DNA of 6,700 nucleotides, from positions 1 through 6,700 of the forward strand of contig JAGLGH010000035.1 in assembly GCA_023144115.1 (NCBI GenBank), given 5' to 3'. Positions 1 to 6,567 of this stretch are shown piece by piece (position 1 is the stretch's first letter; each line of letters opens with the position of its first letter). Both the position numbers and the translations under genes were made by a program. The notes under the pieces were generated by a model. The model saw only the letters and a program-made list of their open reading frames with translations. It was not told the DNA's origin and made no database searches. Source of the DNA: Nanobdellota archaeon. GTDB taxonomy: Archaea > Nanobdellota > Nanobdellia > Woesearchaeales > JAGLGH01.

Positions 1-1629
1 AATGGAGGCACATGCCTCTGCTGTGGAGTAGAAAGCGCAGCAGAGGTTCTGATGGTTGACAAAATAAAAATAGCAATATCAAGGAAAAGCCAAAACTGGA
101 GATACAATGATAATGATCTTATATCCCCTCCTGCTGGATGGACTGAACTTGGATTTAATGATAATTCATGGAAGAAGAAACCAGCTGTATTCAGGAACAG
201 GTACAACTGGATCGGAAACCCAAGCACAATACTTGCTAAATATGAAGGGGACTATTTTTTCAGAAAGAAATTCACTGTGACAAATGTCTCAGCAATAAAT
301 CATTCAAGATTATATGTATTAAGTGATGATGGCGCAGATGTATATCTCAATGGAGTGCTGATTGATAATGACTATAATTCAAGCCATAATGCATTCTACT
401 GGAACAGGGACAGAATCAGCGTAAACACAAGTCTTTTTGTTGAGGGAGAAAACATAATCGCAGCAAGGCTTTACAATAAGGAAAAATGCTTCTGGGGATG
501 GTGCTGGCCTACTGATGTTGCTTTTGATCTTGAGTTAGTCATAAGCGAATCAGAGATAAACCAAACTAAGCTTAAGGCGATAATAATAATGACTGACGGA
601 GAAGCAAATTACAAATGCGATGGGTTTTTTGATGTTGCCCAGGCAAAACAAGATGCTATAGATGCAGCATGCAATGTGTACGAGGACTATGGCATAAGAG
701 TATTCACAGTTGGGTTTGGAAGTAGTGCAGAGGCAGATACATTGATTGCAATGGCCAACTGTTCACAGGGGGAGTATTTCAACAGCTCAAGTGTTGATGA
801 GCTTATGGATGCTTATGACCAAATCACAAATAAGATGCTAGAATTCACCTTAACTCAAACAGGGAATTATTCAGCTTTGCCAGATGCACACCTTTACCCT
901 GACTCATATATTGAATTCAATTATACTTCAATCACAACCCCTCCAACATATGGGGAGATTCCCATAACAATCGAAAGTCCAATCTTCAACAATAACATAA
1001 GTGAGGGTTCAATCTACATACCAAATGATGTTGATCTTATTTCCCTTTCTGCAACAAGCTACTCAGCAGATCAATGGACAAGCTATCTTAATCTTTCAAA
1101 CAGTGACGGACTTTATGAAGTGTTCAACCTCAGCAGCTATAACCAGGATTTCCATGATCTTGGAGATGCATATCAGGTAAATATACCTGTTAATCTTATC
1201 AAAAAAGGAGAATATAATATAATTAATATCATGAATGGAATTGACTCTTATAACTTAAGTGGTGGTTCACCATACAACAGGCTCATCTATACAGTCATGC
1301 TCGATAGTCTGCTTGATTTCTCTGGTGTCTTCTCAAGCAATGAAGGATGCAATTGGTCATTGACATTTGAAGATGGCACAAACAGTTCTCTGCTTGTCCC
1401 TCTGACATATAATGGAACCAAGAATTGCGATTATCTCAATGGCACTTATGATACAGATGATGCTACAGATGAAGCAGCATACAGGCTTTTTGAGAATCTT
1501 GACCTTGATGATAATGGATACCTTGAAGTGAGGCTTGACGAAAGCAACCTCATGCTTGATTTCCTTTCAATATCAGAAGTGCCTTCTATGTGGGGCCCTG
1601 CGATACTGGAGGTGAGAGTATGGCAATAA
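1..1629 (+). CDS. Surface VWA-domain protein with an inserted galactose-binding-like domain (5' partial)
   Basis: Probable secreted or surface-anchored adhesin; the N-terminus lies left of the window. The frame is open from base 1, so the ATG at 52 is internal: the 17 residues before it (GGT, then a CLCCGV stretch and a helix) are the second MIDAS segment of a VWA fold. Numbering from that ATG, residues about 14-165 form a beta-sandwich insert with hallmarks of galactose-binding/CBM-like modules (GWTELGFNDNSW, FFRKKFTV, LSDDGADVYLNGV, GENIIAARLYN, FDLEL). The VWA fold resumes at about 173-260 with IIIMTDGEAN (third MIDAS segment, D182) and RVFTVGFG. Residues 265-525 are a Ser/Thr/Asn-rich, probably beta-rich region ending in a hydrophobic GPAILEVRVW stretch. 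About 17 N-X-S/T sequons suggest an N-glycosylated exterior. The last 10 bases overlap the next gene. The VWA call is strong, the insert call good, and the adhesin role inferred. The first MIDAS motif and any signal peptide or pilin-like leader cannot be seen. Confidence 0.85.
   Translation, partial: NGGTCLCCGVESAAEVLMVDKIKIAISRKSQNWRYNDNDLISPPAGWTELGFNDNSWKKKPAVFRNRYNWIGNPSTILAKYEGDYFFRKKFTVTNVSAINHSRLYVLSDDGADVYLNGVLIDNDYNSSHNAFYWNRDRISVNTSLFVEGENIIAARLYNKEKCFWGWCWPTDVAFDLELVISESEINQTKLKAIIIMTDGEANYKCDGFFDVAQAKQDAIDAACNVYEDYGIRVFTVGFGSSAEADTLIAMANCSQGEYFNSSSVDELMDAYDQITNKMLEFTLTQTGNYSALPDAHLYPDSYIEFNYTSITTPPTYGEIPITIESPIFNNNISEGSIYIPNDVDLISLSATSYSADQWTSYLNLSNSDGLYEVFNLSSYNQDFHDLGDAYQVNIPVNLIKKGEYNIINIMNGIDSYNLSGGSPYNRLIYTVMLDSLLDFSGVFSSNEGCNWSLTFEDGTNSSLLVPLTYNGTKNCDYLNGTYDTDDATDEAAYRLFENLDLDDNGYLEVRLDESNLMLDFLSISEVPSMWGPAILEVRVWQ
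91..546 (+). other. Encoded beta-sandwich (galactose-binding/CBM-like) insert within the VWA domain
   Basis: This is a protein-domain annotation within the first gene, with approximate limits. The segment falls between the VWA helix that follows the GGT MIDAS loop and the strand carrying TDGE. It reads as a complete module: a Trp-rich start (NWRYND), the W-x-x-x-x-F-x-D-x-S-W signature, a YFFRKKF strand, a DDGADVYLNGV strand-turn-strand, and a final GEN-I-AARL strand with FDLEL. Known modules with this pattern are jelly-roll domains that often bind glycans or mediate surface contacts. Two cysteines (KCFWGWCW, C146 and C151 counted from the ATG at 52) could form a local disulfide. Ligand binding is inferred, not shown. 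Confidence 0.7.
1608..1615 (+). promoter_or_regulatory. Strong Shine-Dalgarno that fixes the start of the second gene
   Basis: GGAGGTGA matches the complement of the archaeal 16S rRNA 3' end and lies 4 bases before the ATG at 1620, inside the coding sequence of the VWA protein. It favours ATG 1620 over the upstream in-frame GTG at 1590, which would add ten residues with no comparable site. Confidence 0.8.
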
Positions 1630-2612
1630 AGAATTTGCCTGGCAAATTTTTTAAACAAACCAAAAGCAGAAAATTAAATAAAAAAGGTATATTCTTCACA
1701 TTTATAGCTATAGGTCTTGTCTCTCTGCTTGTATACTCTTTTGCCATCAATACAGGTTATATCTACAGAAATTCCATGTCAGTTATAGAGACAAGAGTAA
1801 ATACAATCAATAATTTCATCAAAGATGTTGATACTGATATTGACAGGGGATTCTATATCTCAAGCTTCAGGTCGATGCTTGCGATAGGGGATTTCATAAC
1901 AGCTAATAATACATTCATGCCTGATATAGATGCTGCTTTTGAAGAGGCTCTTATCAATGCAACAATCATGAATGAAAGTCATGCTCTGCTGACAGGGGCT
2001 TCTTTTACAGAGTGGACTGAAAAGATTAAAGATGAAGCCTTGAAGATTGACATCATCATAGATTTTATTGTATCCAATATAACATTAAACCAGTCAGATC
2101 CCTGGAAGATGGACATGGAAATGGACATAACATACAACATCACTGATAAAAAGCAGACTGCAAGCTGGATGATATCCAAGCATATTGAAACAGAACTCAG
2201 CATAATAGGGTTGGAAGATCCAATGTACAGCCTAAATACATATGGAAAAATAATAAACAAGATAACCAAGGCAAATGAGACAAATTTTGATGATTTTGAT
2301 GTGCTTAAGAATCACATAGCTAGTTCATATTACATAGAGTCTGAACGTGGACCAAGTTTCCTTATGCGTCTTGAAGGCAACTTTTCAAATTCAACAGATG
2401 GAATAGAGAGCATAGTCAATCTAAAAGAGCTTGAGATACAGGGACTTAGCATAAATAATGCAAGCGCAGTGGATTATATCTATTTCAGCAATGAATCAAT
2501 AAGCAACTGCATCATAAATGAGACTATTAATGAAACAGCATCATATAACTGGTTCAGGCTTGATGATGCAGATAGCTATCACCTGAATCTATACAATGTC
2601 AATTGCACATAA
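1620..2612 (+). CDS. Pilin-like membrane-anchored surface protein with sequon-dense ectodomain
   Basis: A 330-residue protein; I know of no characterised family for it. A basic N-terminal tail (KQTKSRKLNKKG) leads directly into one hydrophobic helix at residues 24-43. This resembles an archaeal class III (type IV pilin) leader, with possible cleavage after G23 in KKG and the helix as the pilin stem; uncleaved, it would be a plain N-terminal anchor. The rest is predicted extracellular, with about 14 N-X-S/T sequons (for example N96, N113, N153, N254, N300, N304, N328), and contains RGFYISSFRSMLAIG at about 76-90 and GPSFLMRLEGN at 244-254. Similar phrases recur, as I recall, in uncharacterised DPANN surface proteins. 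The start is set by GGAGGTGA four bases upstream. It overlaps the VWA gene by 10 bases, so the two are co-transcribed and probably translationally coupled, and the products may share a surface structure. The ORF is certain, the pilin-like reading moderate. Confidence 0.85.
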   Translation: MAIKNLPGKFFKQTKSRKLNKKGIFFTFIAIGLVSLLVYSFAINTGYIYRNSMSVIETRVNTINNFIKDVDTDIDRGFYISSFRSMLAIGDFITANNTFMPDIDAAFEEALINATIMNESHALLTGASFTEWTEKIKDEALKIDIIIDFIVSNITLNQSDPWKMDMEMDITYNITDKKQTASWMISKHIETELSIIGLEDPMYSLNTYGKIINKITKANETNFDDFDVLKNHIASSYYIESERGPSFLMRLEGNFSNSTDGIESIVNLKELEIQGLSINNASAVDYIYFSNESISNCIINETINETASYNWFRLDDADSYHLNLYNVNCT

Positions 2613-2689: not shown

Positions 2690-3826
2690 ATGGTTCCAGC
2701 ACTAATACAAACAGGAATTGATAAGCTTATCAATATTGTAAAAGAGCAAGGAAGAATCTCAGTGCCTCGCGTTGCCAGAGAGATTGGTGTAAGTAAGTCT
2801 GTAATAGAAGGATGGATTAAGTTTCTTGAAGATGAAGACCTTATCAGCATTGAGTATAAACTTACAGTTCCCTATATAGTTTATAAGGAACTCTCCAAGA
2901 AAGATCTTCTGCATAAAGCAAGAGAATTCAAAAGCAAGAAAGAGTCATTTATCAGTAAAGCTTCAGTAAGCCTTAGTTTCATTGAAAAAGAGGGAGAAAA
3001 GTTAAAAGGAGCAAAAGGTCAATTCGACAGGCTAAAAAAAGAGCTGGGGATGGAGATAGATAAAGTAAGAGATGAATTAAAAGAGCTAGAGAGATATGAC
3101 AAGCTTAAGTCAGAACTCGACCAGAAGATGATGGAGCAGAAAAAGGGCATGGAAGAATCACTGAAAGAGTATGATTTAAAAGTAAATATAGAGCAAAAAA
3201 AATACGCAGAGATTATTGGTAGTATTGACAAAGAAGAGAGAAGGCTTGTTGAGGAAGAAAAAGATGCTCTTGCTCTGGAGGATCAGGAAAAGCAGCTTTT
3301 TACAAAACTAGACTCAATCAAGGATGTAATAAAAGATATTGAATCAAAGATAAAAGGAAAAGAAGACAAGGCAAAAAAATTCAGAGAAGAGATTGCAGGT
3401 CTAAAAGAATTTGCAGACAAGATAAGAAATGACGTGGAATCAAAGAAGAAAGATTTGCTTCCTGTTGTTGAAGAATCAAGAAGAAAAGCAAAAGATATAG
3501 AGAAGATGCAGGACCTTATCTTTGAGAAGATATCCAAACAGAAAAGAAACCTGAAAGACACACAAGAAGTGACTGATAGATTTAATAAGTTCTTTGACCA
3601 GAACCTTAAGGTCGAGAGTTTGCTGACAAAAATTAATAAGGACAGAGACGAACTTGAAAAAAAGCTTAAGGAAGTTATCAATAAAGCACAGGCCTTCAGG
3701 ATTACTGCGAAAGATAAAGATGTAGGTAAGCATGTTATAGAGCTTGAAAAGATGTTTGGGGAAGTTGAAAAGAAAACATCTTTCTTTGAAGAAGAACTGA
3801 GAAAGTTAAAAAGCCTGTTTGGGTGA
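2690..3826 (+). CDS. Winged-helix plus long coiled-coil cytoplasmic protein, unknown function
   Basis: A 378-residue protein with no signal peptide or membrane segment. Residues about 8-65 look like a winged helix-turn-helix: a first helix, then ISVPRVAREIGVSKSVIEGW with recognition helix around 34-46, then a LISIEYKL...YIVY wing. Residues about 68-375 are almost unbroken Lys/Glu-rich helix with heptad-like hydrophobic spacing, predicted coiled coil; a proline at 258 (DLLPVVEE) may mark a hinge. It could be a DNA-binding regulator with a dimerising stalk, or a wHTH reused for protein contact in a cytoplasmic scaffold, loosely like the coiled-coil FlaC/D/E proteins of archaella, but no homology to those is claimed. 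ATG 2690 is the only good start: an in-frame stop sits at 2663 and no ATG, GTG or TTG lies between. It has its own promoter and no ribosome binding site. Its place just before a secretion operon suggests a linked role (inference). Confidence 0.85.
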   Translation: MVPALIQTGIDKLINIVKEQGRISVPRVAREIGVSKSVIEGWIKFLEDEDLISIEYKLTVPYIVYKELSKKDLLHKAREFKSKKESFISKASVSLSFIEKEGEKLKGAKGQFDRLKKELGMEIDKVRDELKELERYDKLKSELDQKMMEQKKGMEESLKEYDLKVNIEQKKYAEIIGSIDKEERRLVEEEKDALALEDQEKQLFTKLDSIKDVIKDIESKIKGKEDKAKKFREEIAGLKEFADKIRNDVESKKKDLLPVVEESRRKAKDIEKMQDLIFEKISKQKRNLKDTQEVTDRFNKFFDQNLKVESLLTKINKDRDELEKKLKEVINKAQAFRITAKDKDVGKHVIELEKMFGEVEKKTSFFEEELRKLKSLFG

Positions 3827-4040: not shown

Positions 4041-5753
4041 ATGTTGGCAAAAAAAAGGGGTGCGACTAAATTAAAGGTAGCTGGAAATCTGCTAAAAAAA
4101 GTCGCTAAAAGTACTCTTTCTCCTAAAAAAAATATAAAAAAAGCAAAAGATAACAAGAATACTCATGCACAAAAGCCTAAACAAGTTGCAAAGGGGGGAA
4201 AAGTTGCAAAGGGAAAAGCTGTAGCAAAAAAGGTTGCTGGAGTAAAAGAGAAAGCTAAAAAGAAGGAAGAAAATATAATTGATACCTATTCTTTCCAGTC
4301 AGGAAAGATTCCTATAACGATTAATATTCGCCGTGTCAAAGAAGAATTTGTGCCTATATACGATGTATCTATTGCAGCCATAAGCAGAGATACTGAATTT
4401 GTGCTGGAAAAAATAAGAGAAGAGCTTATCGAACAGGTAAACCTGGGCATAGTGGATATTATTAATATCAAAGAAAAGAATCTCATAGAAGATAAATTTA
4501 AAGAAGCTATCATTCTCCTGATAAAGAAATATTTTCCAGAAGTAGATGAGCAGACATCAGAGTTCCTTATAACATTTCTTGTCCAGAGAAGCCTTGGGCT
4601 GGGGTCTATAGAAATATTGATGAGTGACCCAAATCTTGAAGAAATAGCAATAAATTCAGCAAAAGAACCAGTATGGGTGTATCATAGAAAGCATGGATGG
4701 ATTAAGACAAATATTACAATAAAAAGTGAGGAACAAACAAAGCATTATGCTTCAATGATAGGAAGGAAAGTAGGAAGACAGATAACAATACTTGAACCGT
4801 TGCTTGACGCAAACATGATTAATGGAAACAGGGTTAACGCAACTCTTCACCCAATATCCATAGACGGAAATACCATCACATTAAGGAAGTTCGCTGCCAA
4901 GCCATGGACAATCACAGACTTCCTCACCACAAGCACAATGTCTGTTGATATTGCAGCACTTATATGGCTGTGCATACAATATGAGATGAGCATACTTGTC
5001 GCAGGAGGAACTGCAAGCGGAAAAACAAGCATGCTTAATGTTGTCAGTAATTTTTGCCCGCCAAACCAGAGGATTCTTACAATTGAGGATACAAGAGAAT
5101 TAAGGCTGCCACGATTCCTTCATGTCCTGCCAATGATCACAAGGCTGCCTAACCCAGAAGGTAAAGGAGAAGTATCTATGCTTGATCTTCTGGTCAACGC
5201 TCTTAGGCAGAGGCCTGACAGGATATTTGTAGGAGAGATAAGGAGAAAGCGCGAAGCAGAAGTATTGTTTGAAGCTATCCACACAGGGCATGCAGTATAT
5301 GCTACAGTACACGCTAACAGTGCCAAAGAAACAATCACAAGAATGACAAATCCGCCAATAGAAGTCCCAAAAACAATGGTGCAGGCAATCTCTCTTGTAA
5401 TTGTCCAGTACAGGAACAGGAGAACCGGGGCCAGGAAGACTTTCCAGATCGCTGAAGTGCTGGAAGGTGCTGAAACAAATGTCATATACCAATATGATCC
5501 AAAGAAAGATTCTTTTTTCAAGCCCAACAAGCCAAAGCTCATATTTAAGGATCTTGAGATGCATACTGGAATGACACAAAAACAATTCAATATAATTCTT
5601 GCTGAGATGACAAGAGTATTGAACTATCTCATGAAGCACAATATAAATACTGTCGATGGAGTCGGAAAGATTATTGCGATGTATTATACATCTAAAAAGG
5701 AGCTTATGGATATCATAAGAAAAAATAAGCTGCCTGAAGGTATAGGTGATTAA
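4041..5753 (+). CDS. Type II/IV secretion (FlaI/TadA/VirB11-like) ATPase with Lys/Ala-rich N-terminal tail
   Basis: A 570-residue hexameric-type motor ATPase of the PilT/VirB11/FlaI superfamily, which powers assembly of type IV pilus-like filaments or secretion at the inner face of the membrane. Visible motifs: an N-terminal domain from about 78 with the conserved LEPLLDANMINGNRVNATLH segment (251-270); Walker A GGTASGKTS (322-330, K328); Asp box TIEDTREL (347-354); RQRPDRIFVGEIR with Walker B/catalytic E399; His box ATVHANS (421-427, H424); and a C-terminal helical region (about 505-570) typical of FlaI/CpaF-type ATPases. All catalytic motifs appear intact. Residues 1 to about 77 are unusual: a histone-H1-like Lys/Ala/Gly tail with short repeats (QVAKGG, KVAKGK, AVAKKV). 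It has its own promoter and SD, and overlaps the downstream T2SSF gene by 8 bases, as expected for a motor-platform pair. The family is certain. The exact system (archaellum, adhesion pilus, DNA uptake or secretion) is not determined; no FlaH-like gene adjoins it. Confidence 0.96.
   Translation: MLAKKRGATKLKVAGNLLKKVAKSTLSPKKNIKKAKDNKNTHAQKPKQVAKGGKVAKGKAVAKKVAGVKEKAKKKEENIIDTYSFQSGKIPITINIRRVKEEFVPIYDVSIAAISRDTEFVLEKIREELIEQVNLGIVDIINIKEKNLIEDKFKEAIILLIKKYFPEVDEQTSEFLITFLVQRSLGLGSIEILMSDPNLEEIAINSAKEPVWVYHRKHGWIKTNITIKSEEQTKHYASMIGRKVGRQITILEPLLDANMINGNRVNATLHPISIDGNTITLRKFAAKPWTITDFLTTSTMSVDIAALIWLCIQYEMSILVAGGTASGKTSMLNVVSNFCPPNQRILTIEDTRELRLPRFLHVLPMITRLPNPEGKGEVSMLDLLVNALRQRPDRIFVGEIRRKREAEVLFEAIHTGHAVYATVHANSAKETITRMTNPPIEVPKTMVQAISLVIVQYRNRRTGARKTFQIAEVLEGAETNVIYQYDPKKDSFFKPNKPKLIFKDLEMHTGMTQKQFNIILAEMTRVLNYLMKHNINTVDGVGKIIAMYYTSKKELMDIIRKNKLPEGIGD
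4183..4213 (+). repeat. Short direct repeat coding the Lys-rich tail of the ATPase
   Basis: AAGTTGCAAAGGG occurs at 4183-4195 and again at 4201-4213, a period of 18 bases or six codons. The encoded units read QVAKGG and KVAKGK, with a diverged third unit, AVAKKV, following. This is consistent with tail growth by in-frame duplication or slippage in A-rich sequence. Confidence 0.75.
5736..5741 (+). promoter_or_regulatory. Shine-Dalgarno supporting a GTG start of the T2SSF gene
   Basis: GAAGGT lies four bases before GTG 5746, inside the last codons of the ATPase. No ATG occurs in the T2SSF frame until about 5863, within the first membrane segment, so the GTG start is favoured. Confidence 0.55.
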
Positions 5754-6567
5754 TATTTTTGAACAATTCTTTGTTAGTGTCGCAAGGGCTTTTCCTGACC
5801 TTGAACTGAAGATACGGCGAGCAGGGATATATGATACTCCCAGAGCATTTATCAAGAAGACAATGATCATGGCGCTTTACATGAGCATTGCCATTGAGAT
5901 TATTATATTCATGCTTATTGCTAAAAAAGGAATGACATGGGTGTTAATCATTCTCTTCCCAATCCTGATAATTATATTATTTTCCTATTTTATGCATCTG
6001 CCTGATGTTAAGATAATAAAAAAAGAGAAAGAAATAAACAAAGAGATTGTATTTGCAGGGAGATTTATAATCATTGAGATTGGCAGCGGAGTATCGCTGT
6101 ATAACACAATGATAAGCGTGGCAGATCATTACAAACATGTTGGCCAGTATTTCAAGCAGATTCTGCAAAAGGTTGACATGGGGACATCTCTGGAAGATGC
6201 GCTGAATGAAGAAGTAGAGCTGATTCCTTCTGAGAATCTTAAAAGAATTCTGTGGCAGATTATTAACTCGCTAAAAACTGGAGCTGACATGGCAAATTCT
6301 CTGCAGGTTGTCCTGGAACAAATAAGCAAAGAGCAGTTTATAGAGATTCAAAAATATGGGAGAAAGCTTAATCCTATGGCAATGTTCTATATGATGATAG
6401 CAGTCATAGTTCCCTCGCTAGGAATTACTATGATGGTAATAATTGCGTCATTCATTGATATAGAGATTGGTCTGGTCATTCTGTTTATTATTGTAGGGTT
6501 TCTCTCATTTATCCAGTTCATGTTCCTTTCGGTGATAAAAGCATCAAGGCCAGCGGTTGAGTTATGA
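5746..6567 (+). CDS. Type II secretion system F (TadC/FlaJ-like) membrane platform protein, half-size
   Basis: A 273-residue integral membrane protein that should form the platform contacting the upstream ATPase in a type IV pilus-like machine. The order is a short cytoplasmic N-terminus with LKIRRAGI (21-28), hydrophobic helices at about 39-59 and 64-83, a cytoplasmic T2SSF domain at about 100-210 (EIGSGVSLYNTM, VDMGTSLEDAL, LKTGADMANSLQVVLEQI), then helices at about 211-237 and 241-264. This single-T2SSF, four-helix layout is the size of bacterial TadB or TadC; archaellar FlaJ is about twice as long with two such domains. It probably starts at GTG 5746, overlapping the ATPase stop by 8 bases, and its own stop overlaps the next gene as ATGA. 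The family call is strong. Whether it works as a homodimer or pairs with a second T2SSF protein downstream cannot be seen. Confidence 0.93.
   Translation: MINIFEQFFVSVARAFPDLELKIRRAGIYDTPRAFIKKTMIMALYMSIAIEIIIFMLIAKKGMTWVLIILFPILIIILFSYFMHLPDVKIIKKEKEINKEIVFAGRFIIIEIGSGVSLYNTMISVADHYKHVGQYFKQILQKVDMGTSLEDALNEEVELIPSENLKRILWQIINSLKTGADMANSLQVVLEQISKEQFIEIQKYGRKLNPMAMFYMMIAVIVPSLGITMMVIIASFIDIEIGLVILFIIVGFLSFIQFMFLSVIKASRPAVEL

Follow-up and report, generated by a model that had tools for sequence, protein, structure and literature searches.

How DPANN archaea recognise and hold their partner cells is poorly understood, and their type IV pilus loci are listed only as candidates for this task (PMC11291902). 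Here, we analysed contig JAGLGH010000035.1 of a Nanobdellota archaeon from the order Woesearchaeales (assembly GCA_023144115.1; host genome of 1.72 Mb, 87% complete), which comprises 6700 bases and was taken over its full length as the window of this study. The contig begins inside a gene for a protein with a von Willebrand factor A (VWA) domain and continues with genes of a type IV pilus, and the VWA domain is broken by an additional module. But, what should a pilus protein do with a second domain inside its VWA fold? Our analysis suggests that the gene codes for a VWA protein carrying a predicted sugar-binding-type jelly-roll of 164 residues in its split VWA domain, and that this protein is probably the adhesin of the adjacent pilus.

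A module inserted into the VWA domain

The original prediction held that the VWA domain is interrupted in the window, with a GGT motif and a helix at its very start and the next VWA strand only at about nt 568. We found the same interruption with slightly shifted borders: GGT is encoded at nt 4-12, the helix extends to about nt 54 and IIIMTDGE follows at nt 580-603. Hence, T4 and D199, both residues of the metal ion-dependent adhesion site (MIDAS), are 195 residues apart, compared to 30 residues (T505-D535) in the consensus of a hidden Markov model (HMM) built from 33 insert-free family members only. In an alignment of 67 relatives, obtained by a protein search with the window protein whose length filter (0.55-1.75 x 542 residues) hid most complete insert-bearing relatives, the GGT and TDGE columns are separated by 31-40 residues in 63 sequences; the original prediction had put the ordinary spacing at about 35-40 residues. 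The same columns are separated by 200 residues in the window protein, 196 in P0002 and 194 in P0003; P0001 and P0044 start within an insert. The HMM places the insert at residues 19-182, with model positions 502-519 matching residues 1-18 and the match resuming at model position 519 with residue 183.

Pfam assigns PF00092 to residues 192-273 (27.1 bits, cut-off 23.8) and thus recognises only the second VWA half, as the fold is both interrupted and truncated at its front by the contig start. For the latter reason, the first half with the DxSxS motif is absent from the window. The ortholog from genome G001 of the same genus (L033, a protein of 1043 aa) has DISKS at this place, and a canonical MIDAS is present in 107 of the 114 family members in which all five columns are filled. 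Structure prediction joined the two VWA halves into one Rossmann-type fold despite the insert, which itself was modelled as a beta-sandwich, so that neither a failure of the halves to pack nor a different fold of the insert appeared in the models. Close to the MIDAS, we observed that T502, C503, C505, C506 and C700 (numbering of P0076) are each conserved in at least 90% of 52 aligned sequences; the cysteines belong to the motif GTCxCCG beside the MIDAS threonine (P0076 502-506) and to a single site shortly after TDGE (C700). Such nearly invariant cysteines suggest a MIDAS that may be latched by a disulfide.

As the contig start truncates the gene, one could suspect that an assembly or binning error fused two genes. 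The chance of this is practically nil: L033 carries an insert of 164 residues at the same place and with the same borders, independent metagenome proteins share it, and the reading frame is kept. Compared to L033, the insert is 77% identical (following VWA half 65%, C-terminal part 72%) and its ratio of nonsynonymous to synonymous changes (dN/dS) is low (0.10-0.15, with saturated dS). Using the P0003 insert region as query, we obtained the complete insert-bearing relatives P0068-P0071, P0073 and P0076 (996-1054 aa) and the longer proteins P0139 and P0151. Altogether, 12 members labelled GBD have the simple jelly-roll insert, namely the window protein, L033 and 10 further non-redundant members.

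Fold and relatives of the insert

An AlphaFold2 model of nt 58-570 (pLDDT 85.8, pTM 0.84) consists of twelve strands and contains no helix of four or more residues. Foldseek and VIA-align matched it over the whole domain to N-terminal domains of glycoside hydrolase family 2 (GH2) at 7-20% sequence identity (best 50 matches); the VIA-align matches refer to the families listed there, and families beyond these may fit as well. At the level of predicted structure, these results bear out the claim that the intervening segment forms a complete sandwich of the galactose-binding or carbohydrate-binding module (CBM) type. The same fold is known from GH2 jelly-rolls and the beta domain of alpha-L-rhamnosidases; the window protein has no catalytic domain. 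A sequence search of solved structures returned four weak matches only, of which ATP synthase alpha was the best (E 0.03); structure 4rck (E 1.9) also appeared in the fold search.

In the alignment, a tryptophan-rich loop of the insert (CFWGWCW) recurs in similar form in P0001, P0002 and P0076 and as CFLIWCW in L033, and was not found in P0003, P0068-P0071 and P0073. This loop may be a contact site for a ligand. Of the 150 proteins found with the P0003 insert at E <=1e-3, at least 120 were examined; outside the VWA family, precomputed Pfam annotation mostly gives domains of secreted enzymes (metallophosphatase, PhoX and rhamnogalacturonan-lyase type). Among the matches listed, relatives with a named organism are bacterial, except for P0151. 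Within the family, the N-terminal domain shows a remote similarity to the insert (hhalign E 5.8e-5, probability 66, 69 columns). We do not favour an origin of the insert as recent internal duplicate of this domain, as accessory modules of other secreted proteins match already in a direct search (best E 6e-64 and 1e-45 for P0072 and P0074).

The graft site across the family

The phylum was surveyed in 279 genomes with a completeness of 80% or more, scoring no more than three candidates in each; in 69 of them, the family was matched with an E value of 1e-90 or lower. According to the match rows and fetched frames, 67 genes cross the site in a single readable frame (55 single and 12 split matches), and nine partial rows, including the window's own, were omitted. 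The lengths of the single matches are bimodal, with 46 at 814-922 residues and nine at 1008 or more. By match length alone, 46 of the 67 genes are free of an insert. Fifteen genes have a large insert in the loop that precedes TDGE, two (L079, L082) have one just after TDGE and four only elsewhere; L038, one of the 15, has a second insert at another place. In a wider set of 115 non-redundant members, 35 (L079 and L082 included) carry an insert of at least 100 residues at model positions 515-548 and five elsewhere, with L038 counted in both; this sample is enriched for long genes and does not give a frequency, for which 15/67 is the fairer value.

The site contains nothing, one jelly-roll, a jelly-roll with a nested module or LamG modules. 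In 13 non-redundant proteins, a further module splits the jelly-roll and both halves are recognised (first half at E 0.06 or better). The lectin-like LamG domain occupies the site in L035 (together with DUF2341), L038, L063 and L080 and is found at other sites in L038, L049 and L078. DUF2341 has been linked to PilY adhesins and archaeal pilus loci (PMC4858521). A family tree of 118 members was calculated with insert columns removed; it is a quick tree with long branches, some of which meet (L037, L038). Occupancy of the site requires at least 12 changes on this tree, well-supported branches alone force five for the label 'none', and the four members with LamG at the site fall apart. The window protein belongs to a five-member jelly-roll clade (SH-aLRT 99). 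Judged from these sequences, the site was filled repeatedly, or filled and emptied.

Some side observations concern the inserts and their carriers. A VWA domain split by a jelly-roll, which is itself split by a module of beta-rich appearance, occurs in L034, L055, L058, L070, L081, P0139, P0151 and others. Of the nine nested inserts scanned, seven (L034, L036, L055, L058, L070, L077, L085) gave no Pfam match at E 0.01, and those of L040 and L081 only sub-threshold matches. Just after TDGE, L079 (2129-3016) and L082 (1854-2765) encode tandem tryptophan-rich repeats that look propeller-like by eye, in the loop that holds ARM2 in the pneumococcal pilus adhesin RrgA. Pfam found no credible domain in these repeats; L079 has a PF00390 match that spans 17 residues and seems spurious. 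Within the pair L063 and L064, contig MNXB01000016.1, filed as Elusimicrobia bacterium, encodes a family protein identical in 1086/1086 positions to one of a Pacearchaeota genome (DANJ01000013.1) and is, given this identity, very likely misbinned.

The content of the site bears on the question whether the sandwich binds anything at all. The VWA protein could be a pilus tip component whose sandwich is a passive spacer or brace that stiffens the VWA base or sets the distance to the filament. Jelly-rolls of GH2 enzymes, the closest folds, are chiefly structural, so that the fold alone is no proof of sugar binding. Furthermore, the order of helix and strand in the P0076 model would place the insert at the pole opposite the MIDAS, and the fold may already be in use in the N-terminal domain of the family. 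A specific brace would however hardly be exchanged for unrelated modules such as LamG, DUF2341 with LamG or nested domains at the same site, nor be dispensable in 46 of 67 complete genes. We thus consider a purely passive role unlikely.

The adjacent pilus locus

The genes that follow in the window are compiled in Table 1 together with the parts of the VWA protein. For comparison, we inspected 17 loci on 16 contigs (L047 and L049 share one contig), which were picked for strong VWA matches. A homolog of the neighbouring protein TMp330 flanks the VWA gene in all 17 loci, a homolog of the ATPase is present in 13 and one of TadC in 12. Upstream of its VWA gene, L033 has three small genes; a class III signal match slightly below cut-off (21.8 vs 23.7) was obtained for one, and another is archaeal-pilin-like by eye. 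On the other side, a second TadC-type gene follows and a gene for an HTH_10 regulator lies two genes beyond. Divergent from and upstream of this pilus locus, a secreted-looking protein of 713 residues with a DUF5122 propeller match is encoded (L033:13533-15671). Prepilin peptidase PF01478 was detected in three of four genomes (G001, G011, G007).

Table 1 Features of the window and the observations behind them.
Feature	Position (nt)	Strand	Evidence and remarks
C-terminal 542 residues of the VWA protein, 5' end cut by contig start	1..1629	+	Open reading frame; PF00092; ortholog L033
End of first VWA half: MIDAS loop NGGT (T = residue 4), then helix with family motif GTCxCCG	1..54	+	Alignment of 67 relatives; HMM positions 502-519; helix 504-517 in P0076 model
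Inserted module (residues 19-182), predicted galactose-binding / GH2 sugar-binding-type jelly-roll beta-sandwich	55..546	+	HMM break; AlphaFold2 model; Foldseek and VIA-align matches
SDDGADVYLNG core motif of insert	322..354	+	D90, D91, G92, Y96, N98 and G99 nearly invariant in an alignment of 27 rows that includes accessory domains from further secreted proteins
Trp-rich Cys loop CFWGWCW of insert	487..507	+	Alignment; common to the window's clade
Second VWA half; TDGE at nt 592-603 holds the MIDAS aspartate	547..870	+	PF00092; strand 685-692 of P0076 model; HMM 519 onward
C-terminal beta-rich part, also in insert-free members	871..1629	+	Continuous HMM match to model position 878; alignment; strands in P0076 model
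TMp330, one N-terminal hydrophobic stretch (by eye)	1620..2612	+	Open reading frame; start codon ATG (1620) picked by eye, with GTG listed at 1590; start overlaps end of VWA gene
Coiled-coil protein (coiled coil by eye) with sub-threshold winged-helix match at N-terminus	2690..3826	+	HTH_24 19.2 bits, cut-off 21.9; homologs near VWA gene in several loci
FlaI/TadA-type secretion ATPase, type IV pilus family	4041..5753	+	PF00437 128 bits; NF058587 268 bits, below cut-off 550
TadC/FlaJ-type platform protein	5746..6567	+	PF00482 58.7 bits, cut-off 25.2
Start of second TadC-type gene, cut by contig end	6564..6700	+	MMGFKLIKKK...; by-eye comparison with T2SSF gene start L033:2501-3616

Loci with a CpaF-type ATPase, TadC and a coiled-coil protein were described for cluster 2 DPANN including Woesearchaeota (PMC11291902). 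The window shares these three genes, and its locus may be one of the two described there; the main text of that paper has no occurrence of VWA, von Willebrand or vWF. As in those DPANN loci, the coiled-coil gene of the window adjoins the ATPase and TadC genes, and the DPANN coiled-coil proteins were likened to a viral attachment protein in the same source. By eye, the window's coiled-coil protein has no signal sequence, which together with the sub-threshold winged helix would suit a cytoplasmic regulator. The winged-helix reading itself stays a remark, as just one of eight homologs gave a winged-helix match, and a weak one (HVO_A0114, 17 bits vs 27.6).

The N-terminus of the VWA protein is cut off in the window and was studied in its relatives. 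A loose prepilin-like pattern (basic residue, G/A/S/N, aromatic stretch, S/T/A, then D/E-A), written after seeing the sequences, fits 100 of 111 complete family N-termini. The hydrophobic N-terminus would already put the protein at the cell surface, where the module might bind glycans in the S-layer or envelope of the archaeon itself and anchor the protein at home without any foreign cell being involved; a glycan-type fold is silent on whose glycan is bound. Repeated change of the module across the family is in turn what one would expect for changing outside targets, and we regard self-anchoring as quite improbable.

Comparison with known systems

VWA pilus proteins with inserts are already known from bacteria (PilB, CpaL, RrgA, Mfa5). 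In RrgA, GBS104 and Mfa5, which belong to other filament systems, ARM2 follows strand 4 and precedes helix 4, next to the MIDAS, and ARM1 lies in strand C (PMC7835359). The window insert is located between the helix of the MIDAS threonine and the TDGE strand, a different graft site, and some relatives nest domains at two levels. The proposed archaeal analogue of an RrgA-type adhesin holds as far as the archaeal (DPANN) origin and the pilus context are concerned; the place of the insert is not that of the large RrgA arm, which relatives L079 and L082 resemble in this regard. The lectin activity and the host target of the original prediction are putative. In the bimodular type IV pilin PilB of Streptococcus sanguinis, two arms flank the MIDAS of the VWA domain (PMC8179133), whereas the window protein has a whole jelly-roll grafted ahead of the TDGE strand, and additional beta-rich parts lie to either side. 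PilC of the same species, a type IV pilin with a lectin module that binds glycans, is proposed to sit at the tip (PMC9934059); there, the lectin is grafted onto the pilin and not into a VWA domain. The Entamoeba Gal/GalNAc lectin was rejected as analogue, as its VWA-like domain has no MIDAS and the sugar is bound by a different chain (PMC12948311).

A similar layout is that of CpaL of Caulobacter crescentus, a predicted pilin-VWA fusion of a Tad-type pilus (CpaL/TadG), in which a beta-rich part directed away from the MIDAS splits the VWA domain (PMC12607857). According to that source, the split (residues 204-384) lies between DxTxS and the MIDAS threonine 470 and the beta region has no clear structural match, whereas the window protein is split between threonine and aspartate and the insert matches GH2 jelly-rolls. 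The likeness supports a role as surface-contact sensor or assembly primer in the manner of TadG/CpaL or PilY1, in which the protein initiates pilus assembly or signals force and acts as adhesin only in the second place. The cysteines C503, C505, C506 and C700 of P0076 near the MIDAS resemble a force-relevant disulfide of PilY1 mentioned in the same paper, and the HTH_10 gene in L033 would fit as well. Besides this regulator and the sub-threshold winged helix, however, Pfam recognises no known signalling protein among the tested genes of the window and L033, and module exchange suits changing ligands better than constant mechanics. We judge such a role rather unlikely.

The present proteins differ from these bacterial ones in the loop that takes up the graft, in what is grafted (a complete jelly-roll or LamG, in some cases nested), in belonging to an archaeal family and in a single site having been filled repeatedly. 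Among the matches listed in a search of open-licence literature, no paper dealt with this VWA family or its graft site, which does not prove that none exists.

A putative pilus adhesin with an exchangeable module

Several observations argue against an adhesin with a sugar-binding arm. Besides the structural role of the jelly-roll in GH2 enzymes, the remaining relatives of the insert occur as accessory parts in secreted enzymes such as phosphatases and lyases. Pfam detects no CBM or GH2 family (including PF02837) in the window insert up to E 1, and an NCBIfam rhamnosidase profile matches at E 0.002, far below its own cut-off; a weak CBM_35 match (12.7 bits) falls into the C-terminal part outside the insert, and relative L081 matches PF02837 at 18.6 bits, below the cut-off of 28. 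Insert labels are clustered on the tree with fewer changes than after shuffling, and many inserts must therefore be inherited and not new. With respect to the pilus, an ATPase homolog is absent from four of the 17 loci within the stretch fetched, and prepilin peptidase PF01478 was not found in the window's own genome, which is 87% complete. The class III signal is only a look-alike, its acidic residue being shifted downstream by one position relative to bacterial type IV pilins, and the N-terminal helix in the P0076 model (9-34, 26 residues, low confidence) is short compared to the roughly 50 residues of a pilin helix. Ligand, localisation and pilus incorporation are putative.

Weighing these points against the split VWA domain, the pilus locus, the repeated use of one site and the low dN/dS of the insert, we still prefer the adhesin. 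The prepilin-like segment seen in relatives may anchor the protein in the filament or hand it over, possibly at the pilus tip on the cell surface. The VWA domain would then hold a metal at its MIDAS, as the intact motif of the ortholog suggests, and bind a protein or surface ligand. The inserted sandwich may protrude as side arm at the pole opposite the MIDAS and make another contact there, probably to a glycan. As the sequences show, the loop before TDGE works as a grafting site, at which binding specificity could be changed with the VWA core left untouched. Type IV pili of an ultrasmall episymbiotic bacterium help to bind its host (PMC12206443), which makes partner-cell binding via a pilus plausible, not proven, in DPANN archaea.

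From an ecological perspective, the VWA family provides the DPANN pilus loci with a concrete candidate adhesin, whose defined and swappable module lends itself to expression on its own and to binding assays with glycans and cells. As a broader and tentative possibility, one loop of a conserved pilus-tip VWA protein might accept, swap and nest carbohydrate-binding-type modules with core and machine kept constant, and thus serve as exchangeable recognition cassette. If true, this cassette would set which partner cell a DPANN archaeon can hold.
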